From: Rathayibacter sp. SD072
Lineage (GTDB): Bacteria > Actinomycetota > Actinomycetes > Actinomycetales > Microbacteriaceae
Reading direction: 5' to 3'
DNA length: 64,000 nt
NCBI RefSeq assembly: GCF_017355185.1
Contig: NZ_JADILJ010000004.1
Span: forward strand, 1 to 64,000
Position 1 is the first letter of the stretch. Every line of letters starts with the position of its first letter. Below are positions 18,201-63,351 of the stretch, one piece after another. The translations under genes were made by a program, and so were the position numbers. Under the pieces are notes generated by a model. That model was not told the DNA's origin, searched no databases, and saw nothing but the letters and a program-made list of their open reading frames with translations.

Positions 18201-18283
18201 CACGTCCACAGGACCCGTGATCCGTGCTCGACGAGCCCGGATGACGGATGGACGATCAGACGGGCGACCTCCCGAGGGTGCAG

Positions 18284-18398
18284 GCGTCGTGCGAAACGCG
18301 TACCAGCGTTTCGCACGCACCGTTCGCACAACGCTCTCAGGAACGCGCCCACCTCGGAGAGCCGACCGCGGTTCTTCCTCGCCTCGGCGAGGAAGAAC
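18284..18398 (+). repeat. Three-stem repeat family 1, single copy (R6)
   Basis: Stem 1 is CGTGCGAAACGC/GCGTTTCGCACG (18288-18317) with loop GTACCA. Stem 2 is GCTCTC/GAGAGC (18333-18338 and 18357-18362). Stem 3 is GTTCTTCCTCGCC/GGCGAGGAAGAAC (18371-18398). The plan is the same as in the tandem array at 49.8 kb, but the sequences of stems 1 and 3 are quite different. Stem 3 ends 8 nt from the mscL stop and may also serve as its terminator. The rest of the 430-bp gap (17977-18406) holds no gene I can support. Confidence 0.8.
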
Positions 18399-18406
18399 AA
18401 GATGGA

Positions 18407-18859
18407 TCAGTCGACGTGCTTGCCCGAGTTGGCCGTCGTGGCGGTGCCGCCGTTGGCGAGCAGGTCGCGGATGTCGGCGAGCAGCTCGAGCTCGGTCGGC
18501 GCCTTGTCCTCGGCGGCGGGAGCGTCGTCCATCTTCTTCGCGAACGCCGCGTTCTTGAGGTGGTTGATCGGCAGCACGAACGCGAAGTAGAGCACGAACG
18601 CGACGATCACGAACTGGATGAGGGCCGAGAGGACCGCTCCGTACGCGATGACCGTGTCGTCCTCGCCGCCCACGCCCTCGCGGATCGTCCAGCCGAGCGC
18701 CTGCAGCGACGACGCATCGAAGATCACTCCGACGATGGGGTTGAAGATGCCCGTGACGAGCGCGTTGACGATCGTCGTGAAGGCCGCGCCGATGACCACG
18801 GCGACAGCCAGGTCGATGACGTTGCCGCGGAGGATGAACTCCTTGAAGCCGTTGATCAT
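18407..18859 (-). CDS. mscL: Large-conductance mechanosensitive channel MscL
   Basis: This 150-aa homopentameric membrane channel opens under membrane tension to release solutes during hypo-osmotic shock. The N-terminal amphipathic helix and first transmembrane helix are typical (FKEFILRGNVIDLAVAVVIG, then AAFTTIVNALVTGIFNPIVG). The second helix (IQFVIVAFVLYFAFVLPIN) and a C-terminal helical bundle (LELLADIRDLLA) follow. The length is that of actinobacterial MscL. It lies 37 nt downstream of the FmdB gene on the same strand, in the order 5-FCL, FmdB, MscL often found in this phylum. Confidence 0.95.
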   Translation of the reverse strand: MINGFKEFILRGNVIDLAVAVVIGAAFTTIVNALVTGIFNPIVGVIFDASSLQALGWTIREGVGGEDDTVIAYGAVLSALIQFVIVAFVLYFAFVLPINHLKNAAFAKKMDDAPAAEDKAPTELELLADIRDLLANGGTATTANSGKHVD

Positions 18860-35124: not shown

Positions 35125-35157
35125 GATCGAGTAGCCCCGCAGGGGCGTATCGAGATC
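35125..35157 (+). repeat. Palindromic repeat family 2, copy B
   Basis: The element begins GATCGAGTAGCCCC and ends GGGGCGTATCGAGATC. Inner arms GCCCC/GGGGC replace the GCCCG/CGGGC of copy A and still pair. It lies between the convergent AKR and methyltransferase genes. Confidence 0.85.
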
Positions 35158-45034: not shown

Positions 45035-46549
45035 ATGGCTGACTACGTCATTGCTATCGACCAGGGGACGACGTCGTCCCGCGCGATCATCTTCGACAAG
45101 AAGGGATCGATCGTCTCCACCGGCCAGAAGGAGCACGAGCAGATCTTCCCGCGCGCGGGCTGGGTCGAGCACGACCCGATCGAGATCTGGAACAACGTCC
45201 GCGAGGTCATCGGCCAGGCGCTCTCGCGTGCCGACCTGACCCGCCACGACATCGCCTCCGTCGGCATCACCAACCAGCGCGAGACCGCGGTGGTCTGGGA
45301 CAGGACGACCGGCAAGCCGGTCTACAACGCGATCGTCTGGCAGGACACCCGCACGCAGTCGATCGTCGACCGCCTCGCCGGCGACGAGGGTGCGGACCGC
45401 TTCAAGTCGATCGTGGGCCTCCCGCTCGCGACCTACTTCTCGGGCACCAAGATCGTGTGGATCCTCGAGAACGTCGAGGGTGCGCGCGAGAAGGCCGAGG
45501 CGGGCGACCTGATCTTCGGCACGACCGACACCTGGGTCCTGTGGAACCTGACCGGCGGCATCGACGGCGGCGTCCACAAGACCGACGTCACCAACGCGTC
45601 GCGCACGCTCTTCCTCGACCTCGAGACCCTCGAGTGGCGCGACGACATCCTCGAGGCGTTCGGCGTCCCGAAGTCGATGCTCCCCGAGGTCTGCTCCTCC
45701 TCCGAGGTGTACGGCCACGTCGAGTCCTCGTCGCTGCTGCGCGAGGTCCCGATCGCGGGCATCCTGGGCGACCAGCAGGCCGCCACCTTCGGCCAGGCGG
45801 CGTTCGACCCGGGCGAGGCGAAGAACACCTACGGCACCGGAAACTTCCTGATCTTCAACACCGGCACCGAGATCGTCCACTCCAAGAACGGCCTCCTCAC
45901 CACCATCGGCTACAAGCTGGGCGACGGCGAGGTGCACTACGCGCTCGAGGGCTCGATCGCGGTCTCCGGCTCGCTCATCCAGTGGCTGCGCGACAACCTG
46001 GGCCTCATCGGCTCGGCTCCCGAGGTCGAGGCGCTCGCCGCGACCGTCAACGACAACGGCGGCGCGTACTTCGTGCCGGCGTTCTCGGGTCTCTTCGCGC
46101 CGTACTGGCGATCGGATGCGCGCGGCGCGCTCGTCGGACTCACCCGCTACGTGAACAAGGGCCACATCGCCCGCGCAGCGCTCGAGGCGACCGCGTTCCA
46201 GACCCGCGAGGTCCTGGACGCCGTCAACGCCGACTCCGGTGTGCCGCTGCAGGAGCTCAAGGTCGACGGCGGCATGATCGCCAACAACCTGCTCATGCAG
46301 TTCCAGGCCGACATCCTCGGCGTCCCGGTCGTCCGACCGGTGGTCGCCGAAACCACCGCGCTCGGAGCCGCGTACGCCGCGGGCCTCGCGGTCGGCTTCT
46401 GGGAGAACCTCGACGACCTGCGTCAGAACTGGCAGGAGGACTCGCGCTGGACCCCCTCGATGGACCAGGACGAGGCCGCCCGCCAGTACCGCCTCTGGAA
46501 GAAGGCCGTCACGAAGACCTTCGACTGGGTCGACGAAGACGTGTCGTAA
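45035..46549 (+). CDS. glpK: Glycerol kinase
   Basis: This 504-aa FGGY-family kinase phosphorylates glycerol to sn-glycerol-3-phosphate, the substrate of GlpD. The phosphate-1 motif is [45 protein letters not shown] and the catalytic Asp in [11 protein letters not shown] follow. The adenosine region is [20 protein letters not shown] good ribosome site (GAAGGAG) lies upstream of the ATG. It is the last gene of the glycerol cluster. A three-stem repeat (family 1, reversed) starts only 7 nt after the stop. Confidence 0.97.
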
Positions 46550-46555
46550 CCCCTT

Positions 46556-46680
46556 CCGCAGCGGTCCTCGCCCGCTGCGGCGCGGTCGGCTCTCGCAGAC
46601 GGTCGCGATGCGGAGAGCGTCTCGCGTCCGGCTACGACGGAACGCTCGCACGCGTTCCGCCGGTTCGCCTCGCGGAGCGC
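46556..46680 (-). repeat. Three-stem repeat family 1, reversed copy (R5)
   Basis: Read on the minus strand it aligns with the array units at 49.8 kb. Stem 1 is CGGAACGC/GCGTTCCG (loop GTGCGA), stem 2 GCTCTC/GAGAGC, and stem 3 CCGCAGCGG/CCGCTGCGG with a 7-nt loop. The array has CCGCGGCGG/CCGCCGCGG at stem 3, a compensating pair change. Stem 3 directly follows glpK. Confidence 0.82.
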
Positions 46681-46784: not shown

Positions 46785-46817
46785 GGTCGAGTAGCCGCGC
46801 AGCGGCATATCGAGACC
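46785..46817 (+). repeat. Palindromic repeat family 2, copy C
   Basis: The element begins GGTCGAGTAGCCGC and ends GCGGCATATCGAGACC. Outer arms GGTC/GACC and inner arms GCCGC/GCGGC both differ from copies A and B in a compensating way. It is next to family-1 copy R5, as copy A is next to R6. Confidence 0.85.
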
Positions 46818-48662: not shown

Positions 48663-49499
48663 TCAGAGCTCGTAGTCGACGACGACGGGGGCGTGGTCGG
48701 ACCAGCGGGTGTCCCAGCTGTCGGCGCGATCGATCTCGTAGCTGCGCGCGAGCGCGGCGAGCTCGGGGGTGGCGAGCTGGTAGTCGATGCGCCAGCCCGT
48801 GTCGGTGTCGAAGGCCTGGCCGCGCTGCGACCACCAGGTGTAGGGGCCGGGCACCTCGCCGGCGAAGCGGCGGCCCAGGTCGATCCAGCCGAGGCCGGCT
48901 CCGGCGTTGTAGCCCTCTTCGCCCTCGGCGCCGAGGAAGCGGTCGAAGTAGGCGCGCTCCTCGGGGAGGAAGCCGGCCTTCTTGACGTTGCCCTTCCAGT
49001 TCTTGATGTCGAGGGTCCGGTGGCCGACGTTCAGGTCGCCCATCACGACGGCGAGCGGGTTGTGCGCCTGCAGCTGGGGGAGCCGCTCGGTCATCGCGTC
49101 GAGGAACTTCACCTTCTCGTCCTGCTTCGGGGTGCCGACTCCACCCGAGTGCACGTAGGTCGAGACGACGGTGACCGTGCGGTCGCCGACCTCGTAGTCG
49201 GCCTCGAGCCAGCGCCCGGCGGAGTCGAAGTCGTCCGCTCCGAGCGCTACCCGGTGGATCGTCGCGCGATCGCGGGACGCGAGTGCCACTCCGGCGCGGC
49301 CCTTGGCGGTCGCCTCGTCGTGCAGCACGTCCCACTCGTCGCCGAGCAGCCCGGTGAGGTCGTCGGTGGACGCGCGCACCTCCTGGAGGGCGAGGATGTC
49401 GACGTCGCGCGCGGCGAGCCAGTCGCCCATGCCCTTGCGGAACGCGGCGCGCACTCCGTTGACGTTGACGGAGGCGATGCGGAGGAGCTTCTTGGTCAC
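48663..49499 (-). CDS. xthA: Exodeoxyribonuclease III
   Basis: This 278-aa AP endonuclease and 3'-5' exonuclease works in base-excision repair. The motifs of the EEP fold are clear: IASVNVNGVRAAFRKG, the metal Glu in ILALQEVRA, VSTYVHSGG, VVMGDLNVGHRTLDIKN with Asp and Asn, and WRIDYQLATPEL then WSDHAPVVVDYEL with the catalytic His. The GTG start at 49499 has TAGACT 6 nt upstream (on + strand 49506-49511), hence probably leaderless. It heads the xthA-trpS-HAD run. Confidence 0.94.
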   Translation of the reverse strand: MTKKLLRIASVNVNGVRAAFRKGMGDWLAARDVDILALQEVRASTDDLTGLLGDEWDVLHDEATAKGRAGVALASRDRATIHRVALGADDFDSAGRWLEADYEVGDRTVTVVSTYVHSGGVGTPKQDEKVKFLDAMTERLPQLQAHNPLAVVMGDLNVGHRTLDIKNWKGNVKKAGFLPEERAYFDRFLGAEGEEGYNAGAGLGWIDLGRRFAGEVPGPYTWWSQRGQAFDTDTGWRIDYQLATPELAALARSYEIDRADSWDTRWSDHAPVVVDYEL

Positions 49500-49702: not shown

Positions 49703-49781
49703 CAACCTCAGCTGTGACGTGGGTGAAACCCCTGACAGCCGAATCACCCCTGTCGGAGCTGAGGTTGCGCGTGGCGCAACC
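49703..49781. repeat. Nested inverted repeats at the head of the repeat array
   Basis: CAACCTCAGCT (49703-49713) pairs with AGCTGAGGTTG (49757-49767). Inside it GGGTGA (49721-49726) pairs with TCACCC (49744-49749). A separate GGTTGCGC/GCGCAACC hairpin (49763-49781) shares the outer arm, so two folds compete. No gene covers it. Confidence 0.65.
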
Positions 49782-49795
49782 GCCGCCGCCCGTGT

Positions 49796-50290
49796 TCGAG
49801 GCGAATGGGCGGATCGCGTGCCAGCGATTCGTCGTAGCCGCTCGCAATCCGCTTCTGGGAACGCGCCCCGTCGCGAAGCCACCCGCGCCGCGTCGGGCGG
49901 GGACCGCCGCCCATCGTCGAGGCGAACCGGCGAATCGCGTGCCAGCGATTCGTCGTAGCCGCTCGCAACCCGCTTCTGGGAACGCGCCCCGTCGCGAAGC
50001 CACCCGCGCCGCGGCGGGCGGGGACCGCCGCGGAGATGAGCACAGCCGAACCGGCGAATCGCGTACCAGCGATTCGTCGTAGCCGTCCGCTCCCCGCTCC
50101 CGTGAACGCATCCCCGTCGCGAAGCCACCCGCGCCGCGGCGGGCGGGGACCGCCGCCCATCGTCGAGGCGAACCGGCGAATCGCGTGCCAGCGATTCGTC
50201 GTAGCCGCTCGCAACCCGCTCCCGTGAACGCATCCCGTCGCGGAGCCGACTGCGCCGCGGCGGGCGGGGACCGCCGCGGAGACAGAACAG
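49796..50290 (+). repeat. Tandem array of four three-stem repeat units (R1-R4)
   Basis: Units start at about 49796, 49917, 50041 and 50163 (121-124 bp each). Each has stem 1 CGAATCGC/GCGATTCG with loop GTGCCA or GTACCA (R1 with one G-U), stem 2 GCTTC/GAAGC (R1, R2) or GCTCC/GGAGC (R4), and stem 3 CCGCGGCGG/CCGCCGCGG with a 7-nt loop (R2, R4; shorter in R3, weak in R1). R1-R2 and R3-R4 have alternating junctions, so a dimer was duplicated. The whole gap 49500-50397 has no supportable gene; the frames through the array only repeat the unit. Confidence 0.88.
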
Positions 50291-50397: not shown

Positions 50398-52236
50398 TCA
50401 GACCGCGGCGACGGGGCGAGCCGTGACGGGCTCGGGCACCTCGGCGACCACGGGGGCGCGCTTGATGCTCTTGGCGATGATGACGGCGATCGCGGTGACG
50501 ACCATTCCGACGAGGATCGCGACCAGGTAGAGGATCGGCTGCCCGACGAGACCGGTGACCCAGACTCCGCCGTGCGGGGCGCGCAGCGTCGAGCCGAACA
50601 GGGCGACGAGCGCGCCGGTGACGGCCGAGCCGATCATCGCGGACGGGATCACGCGCAGCGGGTCGACCGCGGCGAACGGGATGGCCCCCTCCGAGATGAA
50701 CGACGCGCCGAGCAGGTAGGCGGCCTTGCCGTTCTGGCGCTCGGCGTCGGTGAAGAGGCGCTTGCGGAGCGTGGTGGCCAGGGCGAGACCCAGCGGCGGC
50801 GTCATGCCGGCGGCCATCACGATCGCCATCACCTTGAACTGCACCGAGTTCGGGTCGCCGTCGGCGGGGACGGAGGCGAGTCCGGTGGTCGCGAAGGCGT
50901 AGGCCACCTTGTTGACCGGGCCGCCCATGTCGAACGCCATCATGAGGCCCAGGATGATCCCGAGCACGATGAGGTTGCCGCCGGTGAGGCCGGAGAGCCA
51001 GGTCGAGAGTCCCTCGCTCAGGGCGCGGAGCGGTGCCCCGAGGACGACGAACATCAGGAAGCCGGTGATGAAGGTCGCGATCAGGGGGATGATCACGACG
51101 GGCATCAGCGACTTGAAGGCCGCGGGCAGCTTGATCCGCGAGATGTAGAGCGCCGCGTAGCCGGCGATGAAGCCCGAGGCGAGTCCGCCGAGGAAGCCGG
51201 CCCCGACGGTCACGGCGACCGCGCCGCCGAGGAATCCGGGAGCGATGCCCGGGCGGTCCGCGATGCCGAAGGCGATGAAGCCCGAGAGTACCGGCACGAG
51301 GAACGCGAAGGTGGCGCCTCCGATGAGGAACATGACGCCGGCCCAGTCGGTGATGTTCACCGGGTTGAAGCCGTTGTCGATGATCTGCTGCGGCGTGAAG
51401 CTGACGATCGTGTAGCCGCCGAACAGGAACGACAGGGCGATCAGCAGACCGCCGGCCGCGACGAACGGGATCATGTACGACACGCCGGTCATCAGGTTCT
51501 GACGGATGCGCGTGCCGACGCCGACCTTCTTCGGGGCGGCGGCGGGCGCGGCGGCCGCCTGCGCACGGGCGGGGGCGTCGGCGGGCCTCGCGCTGCGCAG
51601 GGCCAGCGCCCGATCGAGCACCTCGTCCGGCTTGGCGAGCGCCTCGGCGACTCCGACCTGGAGGATCGGCTTGCCGGCGAAGCGGTCCTTGCCGCGGACC
51701 TCGAGGTCGGCGGCGAGGATGACGACGTCGGCGGCGGCGATGTCGCCCGCGGTCATCTCCTCGGAGCCGGCGGCTCCCTGCGTCTCGACGTGGATCGGGT
51801 AGCCGCGCTTCCTCGCGGCCTGCTCGAGCGCCTCGGCGGCCATGTAGGTGTGCGCGATGCCCGCGATGCAGCTGGTGACGGCCACGAACCGGGGTGTGTC
51901 CGAGGAGGTCCCCGGCGACGCGGACGGCGCGGCCTGGGCGGTCGCGACGGCGCGGTCGATGACCTCGGCGGCCTTCGCGAGCGCCTCCGAGGTGCCGACC
52001 TCGAGGGTCGGCTTCCCGGCGAAGCGCTCCTTGCCGCGGACCTCGAGGTCGGCGGCGAGGATGACGACGTCGGCGTCGGCGATCGTCTGGTCCGACATGG
52101 GGTCGGAGCCCGCGGCGCCCTGGGTCTCGACCTGGATCTCGTACCCCTTCTTCTTCGCGGCCTGCTCGAGGGCCTCGGCGGCCATGTAGGTGTGCGCGAT
52201 GCCGGCGATGCAGCTGGTGACGGCGACGATCCTCAT
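50398..52236 (-). CDS. fruA: Fructose PTS transporter, EIIB-EIIB-EIIC
   Basis: This 612-aa protein imports fructose with phosphorylation to fructose-1-phosphate. Two fructose-type EIIB domains come first (about 1-100 and 115-210), each starting VAVTSCIAGIAHTYMAAEAL with the phospho-Cys. A linker rich in Ala and Pro leads to an EIIC domain of about 350 aa with about nine helices (RIRQNLMTGVSYMIPFVAAG; FDMGGPVNKVAYAF; PFAAVDPLRVIPSAMIGSAV). In Escherichia coli FruA only one of the two B domains is active; here both keep the Cys. The ATG overlaps the EIIA stop (ATGA 52233-52236). Confidence 0.94.
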   Translation of the reverse strand: MRIVAVTSCIAGIAHTYMAAEALEQAAKKKGYEIQVETQGAAGSDPMSDQTIADADVVILAADLEVRGKERFAGKPTLEVGTSEALAKAAEVIDRAVATAQAAPSASPGTSSDTPRFVAVTSCIAGIAHTYMAAEALEQAARKRGYPIHVETQGAAGSEEMTAGDIAAADVVILAADLEVRGKDRFAGKPILQVGVAEALAKPDEVLDRALALRSARPADAPARAQAAAAPAAAPKKVGVGTRIRQNLMTGVSYMIPFVAAGGLLIALSFLFGGYTIVSFTPQQIIDNGFNPVNITDWAGVMFLIGGATFAFLVPVLSGFIAFGIADRPGIAPGFLGGAVAVTVGAGFLGGLASGFIAGYAALYISRIKLPAAFKSLMPVVIIPLIATFITGFLMFVVLGAPLRALSEGLSTWLSGLTGGNLIVLGIILGLMMAFDMGGPVNKVAYAFATTGLASVPADGDPNSVQFKVMAIVMAAGMTPPLGLALATTLRKRLFTDAERQNGKAAYLLGASFISEGAIPFAAVDPLRVIPSAMIGSAVTGALVALFGSTLRAPHGGVWVTGLVGQPILYLVAILVGMVVTAIAVIIAKSIKRAPVVAEVPEPVTARPVAAV

Positions 52237-61906: not shown

Positions 61907-62026
61907 TCGTTCCCACCCCCGGGCCTCGGCAGCGCGACCCTCCCTCTGTCCGCACCCGTCCGCGCGCAGCGCGCAGGGGGCCGAGCAGCTCGGAACCTCG
62001 AGCGAACGGGGGAGGGCCGTGAGCCC

Positions 62027-62132
62027 AGATCGCGTGCCAGCGATGTCCGCCAGCCCGAAGCACCTTGCTCTCGGAAACGCGCCACCTCGGAGAGCCGTCC
62101 GCGGTGGAGGAGGCGCTCAGCGCCTCCTCCAC
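62027..62132 (+). repeat. Three-stem repeat family 1, single copy (R7)
   Basis: Stem 1 is ATCGC/GCGAT with loop GTGCCA (62029-62044). Stem 2 is GCTCTC/GAGAGC (62067-62072 and 62090-62095). Stem 3 is GTGGAGGAGGCGC/GCGCCTCCTCCAC (62104-62132) with a 3-nt loop. Only this element and the manC terminator are recognisable in the 404-bp gap 61862-62265. A short GTAACG direct repeat follows near 62148 and 62200 in the presumed promoter region of the BMP gene. Confidence 0.78.
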
Positions 62133-62265: not shown

Positions 62266-63351
62266 TTGACTATCACCACGCGTAAGGCCGCGTTCGGCGG
62301 TCTGGCCGCACTGGGCGTCACCGCGCTTCTCGCCGGCTGCGCCTCCGCTCCCGAGGAGGGCGACTCGGGCGCCGCCGCGGGCAGCGACTTCCTGCCCTGC
62401 ATGGTCTCCGACGCCGGAGGCTTCGACGACAAGTCCTTCAACGAGCTCGGCTACACGGGTCTCGTCGAGGCCGCGGACGAGCTGGGCGTCGAGCCCATCG
62501 ACGTGACCTCGGAGTCCGAGACGGACTACGCCCCGAACCTGACGAGCCTCGTCGACCAGGGCTGCAACCTGATCATCACCGTCGGCTTCGCTCTCGCGGA
62601 TGCGACCAAGGCCGCGGCCGAGGCGAACACCGACATCGACTTCGCGATCATCGACGACGCCTCGATCGATCTCGAGAACGTCAAGCCGATCACGTTCGAC
62701 ACGTCGCAGTCCGCGTTCCTCGCGGGCTACGCTGCCGCGTCGTACTCGAAGACCGGTGTCGTCGGCACGTACGGCGGACAGCCGTACCCGACCGTCACGA
62801 TCTTCATGGACGGCTACGCCGACGGCGTCGCGTACTACAACGAGCAGAAGGGCGCCGATGTGAAGGTCGTCGGCTGGGACGTCGCGTCGCAGAACGGCTC
62901 CTTCACCGGCGGCTTCGCGCCGGGCGTCGAGGCCAAGTCGGCCGCTCAGTCGCTGATCGACCAGAACGCGGACGTCATCCTCCCCGTCGGCGGTCCGATC
63001 TTCCAGTCCGCGATCGAGGCCATCCGCGACTCCGGCAAGGAGATCGCGATGGTCGGTGTCGACGCCGACCTGTACGAGACGTACCCGGACGGCGGCGACC
63101 TCTACCTGACGTCGATCCTCAAGGGCATCAAGGAGGGCACGTCCGACGTGACCGCTTCGGCCGGCGCCGGCGAGTTCGACGCCACGCCGTACGTCGGCAC
63201 GCTGGAGAACGACGGAGTGGGCATCGCCCCGTTCCACGACTTCGAGTCGAAGGTCTCGCCCGACCTGCAGGGCGAGCTGGACGCGATCACCGAGGGCATC
63301 ATCGACGGATCGATCACCGTCGAGTCGCCGTCGGCGCCCGCCGCCTCCTAG
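62266..63351 (+). CDS. BMP-family ABC transporter substrate-binding lipoprotein
   Basis: This 361-aa lipoprotein has a signal peptide ending in the lipobox VTALLAGC (Cys about 25), so it is anchored outside the membrane. The BmpA/Med domain shows VSDAGGFDDKSFNELGYTGL, ITVGFALADATKAAAEAN, GQPYPTVTIFMDGYADGVAY and DVILPVGGPIFQSA. BMP proteins bind purine nucleosides for import. The start is TTG at 62266, with GGAGG about 10 nt upstream. A strong terminator follows, then the ATPase gene of the same importer. Confidence 0.92.
   Translation: MTITTRKAAFGGLAALGVTALLAGCASAPEEGDSGAAAGSDFLPCMVSDAGGFDDKSFNELGYTGLVEAADELGVEPIDVTSESETDYAPNLTSLVDQGCNLIITVGFALADATKAAAEANTDIDFAIIDDASIDLENVKPITFDTSQSAFLAGYAAASYSKTGVVGTYGGQPYPTVTIFMDGYADGVAYYNEQKGADVKVVGWDVASQNGSFTGGFAPGVEAKSAAQSLIDQNADVILPVGGPIFQSAIEAIRDSGKEIAMVGVDADLYETYPDGGDLYLTSILKGIKEGTSDVTASAGAGEFDATPYVGTLENDGVGIAPFHDFESKVSPDLQGELDAITEGIIDGSITVESPSAPAAS

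Follow-up and report, generated by a model that had tools for sequence, protein, structure and literature searches.

A folded, multi-copy element of Rathayibacter with a preferred orientation at the 3' ends of genes

Results

A tandem array behind a fruA-like gene

The DNA analyzed here, which we call the window, comprises positions 1-64,000 of contig NZ_JADILJ010000004.1 from Rathayibacter sp. SD072 (GCF_017355185.1). The gap between an exonuclease III-like gene and a fruA-like gene contains a tandem array (Table 1). Tandem Repeats Finder describes it as 4.1 copies of period 121 with 86% matches at 49783-50277, and a covariance model resolves four units at 49797-50279 (+) whose starts are 121, 124 and 122 bp apart. 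By eye, a hairpin also lies between the 3' end of the fruA-like gene and the array. An earlier note on this sequence had described four tandem units and three dispersed copies, and both are present in the window. Its observation of a structured tandem array is therefore confirmed, and the family turns out to be larger than first described. The note's further proposal, that a dimer had been duplicated, agrees poorly with the unit identities. The highest core identity, 0.96, is between units 1 and 2 (compared to 0.82 for units 1 and 3 and 0.90 for units 2 and 4), which leaves a simple dimer duplication poorly supported. Immediately left of the array, at 49704-49768, we noticed an inverted repeat, AACCTCAGCT ... 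AGCTGAGGTT, that gives weak matches to microRNA models on both strands.

Read in the orientation of the array, a unit is approximately 116 nt long and consists of a P1 hairpin, a conserved core of approximately 48 nt and a P3 hairpin. P1 has about 14 base pairs and a small internal loop. Its outer pairs vary; the tip (CGC, loop, GCG) hardly does, and the loop is exactly GTGCCA in 90 of 149 distinct copies. The letters of the P3 stem differ from locus to locus; its loop often has 7 nt, and sometimes a longer stem carries a loop of 3-4 nt. RNAalifold predicts a short CGC/GCG helix within the core, the letters of which are nearly invariant.

Table 1. Array units, dispersed copies and neighboring genes in the window
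Feature	Position	Strand	Details
Array unit 1	49797..49912	+	P1 49800-49839, core, P3 49888-49912; covariance model 102.3 bits
Array unit 2	49918..50033	+	P1 49921-49960, P3 50009-50033; covariance model 116.5 bits
Array unit 3	50042..50158	+	P1 50045-50084, P3 50134-50158; covariance model 97.8 bits
Array unit 4	50164..50279	+	P1 50167-50206, P3 50255-50279; covariance model 118.5 bits
Exo_endo_phos (exonuclease III-like) gene	48663..49499	-	P1 side of array; gene call and Pfam
PTS IIB/IIC (fruA-like) gene	50398..52236	-	3' end toward array, distance 119 bp
Dispersed copy, glpK-like gene	46556..46672	-	P3 end 7 bp (coordinate difference) from stop codon of FGGY kinase (glpK-like) gene 45035-46549 (+)
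Dispersed copy, mscL	18280..18398	+	P3 end 9 bp (coordinate difference) from stop codon of mscL, gene 18407-18859 (-); MscL by Pfam
Dispersed copy, exception to the placement rule	62013..62128	+	P3-side gene 62266-63351 (+), Bmp family, reads away, 138 bp

Pairing in P1 and P3 is supported by covariation

The covariance model was built from an alignment of 26 of 32 extracted copies; the six omitted comprised near-duplicates from a single array and one aberrant copy. In this alignment 85.3% of base-pair cells hold standard pairs, a value that none of 500 shuffles reaches, and controls with slid partners stay at or below 38.9%. Among 149 distinct copies 90.1% of cells pair, compared to at most 43.2% after sliding, although this larger alignment was fitted to the model and is biased toward it, a bias that the slid and tree controls remove only partly. 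Covariation was assessed with our own R-scape-like tree null, in which the substitutions of each column are placed again at random on the tree of copies (60 null alignments). Eleven of the 29 modeled pairs covary at E<0.05, all of them in stems 1 and 3 (P1 and P3), and a ranking by mutual information, made without any guide to the structure, also puts pairs of P1 and P3 on top. We conclude that these two hairpins are established by covariation.

Stem 2 behaves differently. None of its six pairs is supported by the tree null (E values from about 1228 upward), and pairing fails in 93 of the 149 copies for columns 65-92 and in 57 for columns 66-91. Together with the mutual information, these results rule out stem 2 as a covarying helix, the very stem in which the earlier note had seen covariation. 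Of the covarying three-stem element proposed there, the structure stands through stems 1 and 3, and stem 2 no longer serves as proof. The idea that pairing is kept beyond mere repeat identity holds up, since shuffles, slid controls, tree null and conservation at orthologous loci all agree. The note had named a lack of significant covariation among more homologues as grounds for refutation; the 11 pairs found here with the R-scape-like test leave the proposal unrefuted on that point, and the earlier interpretation as a whole is partly supported.

Single copies fold better than their shuffles (mean z of -2.55 on the array strand and -2.22 on the other, 113 thinned copies), with the lower z on the array strand in 74 of 113 copies (Wilcoxon p=0.001). 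Taken together, the four units show no such advantage over shuffles (z of -0.82 on the + strand and +1.46 on the - strand), which, along with the high GC content and the ease with which many GC-rich sequences accommodate stems, could invite an explanation by chance, by artefacts of GC-rich repeats or by decayed coding sequence. We regard this explanation as vanishingly improbable. Pure chance is refuted by the tree null, the shuffles and the slid controls; genus-wide homologues also speak against it, and the unit spacings and paired stem changes do not resemble what a decaying coding sequence would be expected to show.

The element is confined to Rathayibacter among the genomes examined

A DNA search of the source genome returned 29 matches to the element, and the covariance model found at least 61 at E≤0.01; because 150 of 12172 first-look candidates were scored, this number may be a lower bound. 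Among 60 chosen relatives the element is present at E≤0.001 in all 15 Rathayibacter genomes and in none of 45 genomes from other genera. The 15 genomes carry from 10 to at least 61 copies, and a fuller search of two of them gave 71 and 48. A broader survey of Microbacteriaceae, run under strict filtering with 12 candidates scored in each genome, gave matches in six of 299 genomes (85 genera), all six Rathayibacter, and none in the other 293. Short-pattern matches marked 87 stretches, 58 in Rathayibacter and 29 in other genera. None of the latter had a model match better than E=0.14, so we take them as chance and reject a spread outside Rathayibacter. Within this sampling, then, the family is restricted to one genus.

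A search for plasmid relatives gave no match. At the gathering score, Rfam has no match over the array or the other copies in the window. At a relaxed E only sub-threshold matches at chance level touch the array, the best being P36 (E=1.1, 16.7 bits compared to the 36 needed), and at six further loci no match overlaps an element. A literature search that covered few subscription papers found no description of the family. Two of the Rathayibacter genomes contain AT-richer copies with a GC content of 0.60-0.65 (L063 in G004; L064 and L078 in G009), and the same two have T-run terminators at the tRNA spacer discussed below (L253, L254), unlike the other 13.

P3 points toward the 3' ends of genes

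Counts of position, wobble and covariation rest on 150 of 195 matches, from loci that were fetched for differing reasons and include orthologues. Genes were called with our own simple codon-usage caller, which ignores RNA genes. The 150 aligned copies form 114 clusters; on the P3 side, a gene was called for 108 of them and none for the other six. In 93 of the 108 this gene presents its 3' end, a count that includes non-independent clusters from orthologous loci. P3 lies less than 60 bp from the stop codon in 80 of these 93 and exactly 9 bp from it in 18. Genes on the P1 side are distant, with medians of 509 and 358 bp. The remaining 15 of the 108 have no called gene 3' end on the P3 side; at two of them, an opposite-strand ORF of 633 codons ends 9 bp away.

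The same polarity is seen at RNA genes. At two loci the element follows tRNA-Ile by 12 nt and precedes tRNA-Ala, and at one it faces the 3' end of rnpB (RNase P RNA) at approximately 70 nt. The placement rule is therefore not about translation. We conclude that placement is polar, with P3 toward the 3' end of genes that mostly encode proteins and also include tRNA-Ile and rnpB.

Element sites have convergent neighbors in 53 of 84 cases, compared to 42 of 123 in a background taken from six syntenic regions, made up of gene ends that lack the element and have 150 bp or more of space. Where clusters of opposite orientation lie less than 1.7 kb apart, the order in two genomes is - then + (8 and 4 times) and never + then -. 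Several such pairs are convergent genes with an element behind each (L166, L168, L170).

The gaps between paired elements also contain a second repeat, GTCGAGTAGCC-hairpin-GGC(G)TATCGAGA, which resembles a GTAG-tagged REP. It occurs in many of the 19 gaps compared (L009, L166, L170-L175) and in the window at 46786-46806 and 35126-35146, and it is present although a PF01797 gene was not found in the Rathayibacter genomes searched.

Copies are retained at orthologous gene ends

Across the 81 kb surrounding the array, aligned blocks from five other Rathayibacter genomes are 85.5-89.7% identical to the source. The same gene-end sites are occupied there in six of six cases in the nearest relative and in two to five in the other four genomes. 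Sequence comparison between species used five of the six loci, omitting fruA, and at the 72-kb locus it omitted two species with tandem or disturbed copies. On this basis, identity is 0.83 in the core, 0.63 in the first 95 bases of the P1-side flank and 0.55 in bases 96-190, the last equal to the 0.55 of random DNA. In 45 of 48 comparisons (five loci), identity is higher in the element than in the nearer flank. Paralogous cores within the source genome have a mean identity of 0.67 and a maximum of 0.89. In P3 of the mscL copy, a comparison of two species shows five stem positions changed, each together with its pairing partner. Thus, the element is kept at orthologous gene ends, with compensated changes in its stems.

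Sites with and without the element can be compared directly at two loci. The spacer between tRNA-Ile and tRNA-Ala contains it in four of 15 genomes and lacks it in 11. By eye, a hairpin lies about ten bases after tRNA-Ile in all 15: P3 where the element is present and a plain hairpin where it is absent, the latter followed by a T-run in two of the 11 element-free genomes. The filled and empty spacers are too diverged to reveal any target-site duplication, which along with terminal inverted repeats would mark a MITE. At the 3' end of glpK, an element follows the orthologous stop codon in seven of 15 genomes, and in the other eight we saw, again by eye, a long unrelated hairpin about 10-17 nt past the stop. 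Judged in this way, P3 occupies the position of a terminator-like hairpin in element-free relatives. At one glpK locus (L196, genome G001), 16 nt past the stop codon, a different perfect palindrome of approximately 50 bp occupies, by eye, the place that in other species is taken by the element or by a terminator-like hairpin.

Like an intrinsic terminator, the element can supply the first hairpin past a gene, as P3 does at the tRNA-Ile locus. Unlike one, it has approximately 80 nt of conserved element behind that hairpin, and P3 is not followed, on average, by a T-run in the sense of the gene (mean of 1.10 T in 10 nt, n=97). P3 is therefore no canonical intrinsic terminator. The few ordinary hairpins counted behind element-free genes are T-poor as well (1.47, n=15), a figure from 15 of 179 gene ends in which only perfect stems of at least 8 bp were counted, too strict a rule for a baseline. 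Nor is P3 always the first hairpin: of 34 gaps of 20-150 bp between a gene and P3, 11 contain a separate hairpin of at least 8 bp, and fruA also has one.

Wobble pairs give a weak strand preference

A folded RNA should tolerate wobble pairs on its own strand. On the array strand, which is antisense to the neighboring gene, P1 has 63 G.U and 23 A.C states. After thinning of near relatives the counts are 18 and 11 at 40 sequences and 8 and 6 at 20. P3 is even (20 G.U and 18 A.C), and 1242 of its 1327 cells are Watson-Crick. Read-through from convergent genes, considered as a source of folded RNA, predicts a larger wobble excess at convergent sites. We found no such difference (22 to 11 at convergent and 21 to 10 at tandem sites, Fisher p=1; 20:2 at the remaining sites), an outcome that counts against the mechanism we prefer. 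Only at convergent sites is the array strand read by a neighboring gene, so the equal excess speaks against a simple RNA reading. The folded form may instead be single-stranded or cruciform DNA.

These data bear on two alternatives. If the element acted in the sense transcript as part of the 3' UTR, P3 and P1 might protect the mRNA from 3' exonucleases or bind a protein. P3 lies directly past stop codons and tRNA-Ile and close to rnpB, which makes transcription of the sense strand likely, and the conservation at orthologous loci would suit such a role. However, the G.T states of P1 become A.C mismatches in the sense strand (63 compared to 23 before thinning), and the predicted folding is slightly better on the other strand. 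We consider an mRNA element unlikely.

The second alternative is a DNA site for a protein of chromosome organization or topology, similar to BIMEs and gyrase, with hairpins extruded as cruciforms where positive supercoils gather at gene ends. The strand-symmetric and overwhelmingly Watson-Crick pairing of P3 would agree with this, as would the enrichment between convergent genes and a mild enrichment away from the origin. On contig C1 of genome G003, which starts at dnaA, clusters are thinned near dnaA and the middle half contains 34 of 52 (p=0.018). The G005 contig begins elsewhere than at dnaA and its origin was not located; there the middle half contains 25 of 39 (p=0.054). Yet a plain double-strand binding site would conserve letters rather than pairing, and we know of no protein for the element. 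A topology site seems quite unlikely to us.

Relationship to REP-like repeats

RU-1 (127 bp), BOX and RUP are short non-coding repeats that are dispersed in bacterial genomes and presumed to be mobile, and the element resembles them in this general description. Its location at gene 3' ends also led us to consider integron attC sites, which have R-box motifs and an IntI integrase.

A closer comparison is with REPs, which PMC3733652 describes as palindromes of 20-40 bp with a GTAG or CGTC tag, the CGTC type having no dedicated transposase. For two REP-rich species, most of the REPs found between convergent ORFs are reported to lie within 20 bp of ORF 3' ends (PMC3733652). By its behavior the element belongs with them, being multi-copy, extragenic and located beside ORF 3' ends. 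Like GTAG- and CGTC-REPs and BIMEs, it is a short palindromic intergenic repeat with many copies near ORF 3' ends, for the most part where the flanking genes converge or run in the same direction; unlike REPs (PMC3733652), it measures approximately 116 nt, combines two hairpins with a conserved core and lacks a conserved tag. It also differs in that its orientation relative to the gene is fixed, its P3 is specific to the locus, and it is conserved at orthologous loci. For the tag, we inspected the consensus of 149 copies (length 116) by eye and found neither GTAG nor CGTC conserved at an end.

REPINs are symmetrical doublets tied to RAYTs, and their hairpins carry compensatory changes (PMC3116915). 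The element likewise has units built from hairpin-forming parts, compensatory changes and clusters, but it is asymmetric and no PF01797 gene was found with it. The earlier note had raised the prospect of a linked RAYT-like transposase. PF01797, the RAYT-type family, was absent from all 36 genomes searched, the 15 Rathayibacter included, with a search that detected it in five of 14 known genomes used as control. We therefore reject RAYT linkage as far as PF01797 is concerned. The element groups with REP/BIME-like repeats by behavior, but not by tags, size or a transposase link.

This kinship gives weight to an explanation as selfish, REP/REPIN-like mobile DNA: the element would be a folded single strand, with P1 and P3 as end hairpins, that is or once was moved in trans by a transposase, and gene ends would merely tolerate it. 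The 10 to 71 matches per genome, the tandem arrays and the close divergent pairs are what such DNA might leave behind, and the weak preference of wobble pairs for one strand regardless of transcription is a further point in favor. REPs also lie near ORF 3' ends (PMC3733652) and REPIN hairpins are also compensated (PMC3116915), so neither feature alone proves a function for the host. Against mobility stand the missing PF01797 gene in 15 Rathayibacter genomes, the age of the copies within a genome (as the paralogue identities indicate), the fixed orientation to the gene and the locus-specific P3. Above all, orthologous copies exceed their flanks in identity between species that are 85.5-89.7% identical. 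This conservation beside saturated flanks is what tips the balance toward a host function, and purely selfish DNA is to us a minority possibility.

A possible role at transcript ends

Extragenic repeats in bacteria are frequently attributed to selfish DNA of the REP type or go without an explanation. To our knowledge, the ending of transcription by T-poor hairpins in GC-rich Actinobacteria is poorly understood. The present family, restricted to a single genus, can be traced from species to species at corresponding gene ends, and it offers occupied and empty sites as well as compensated stems, so the question of whether it is a parasite or a part of transcription ends can be put to a direct test. 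The polar placement at 3' ends, the conservation at orthologous loci and the restriction to one genus are the most informative features, and none of them is visible from the window alone. Judged from sequence, the element looks like a new kind of gene-end element.

Our preferred explanation, held tentatively and with somewhat less than even confidence, is that a REP/BIME-like repeat spread in an ancestor and is now under selection as a terminator or insulator module at transcript ends; we infer both its role and the strand on which it acts. The array would then be a tandem expansion of a folded cis-element that is specific to Rathayibacter and present in many copies. After the ancestral spread, copies would have been retained by selection where transcripts end. 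P3, usually the first hairpin past the gene, would replace the ordinary terminator-like hairpin of relatives and act as the terminator hairpin. Behind it, the core and P1 may help to stop or insulate transcription by recruiting or blocking something. Insulation would be most useful between convergent genes. A more specific version, which we think rather doubtful, is that the module takes over the terminator position with a conserved core and a hairpin private to each locus, insulates convergent genes by a novel factor-dependent mechanism, and works alike behind protein, tRNA and RNase P RNA genes. The tRNA spacer argues against termination there, because the element precedes a second tRNA on the same strand, and full termination would need a second promoter.

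Tandem copies are probably gained and lost through unequal exchange. Their number shifts rapidly: behind fruA it is four in the genome studied here, two in one close relative and one in another.
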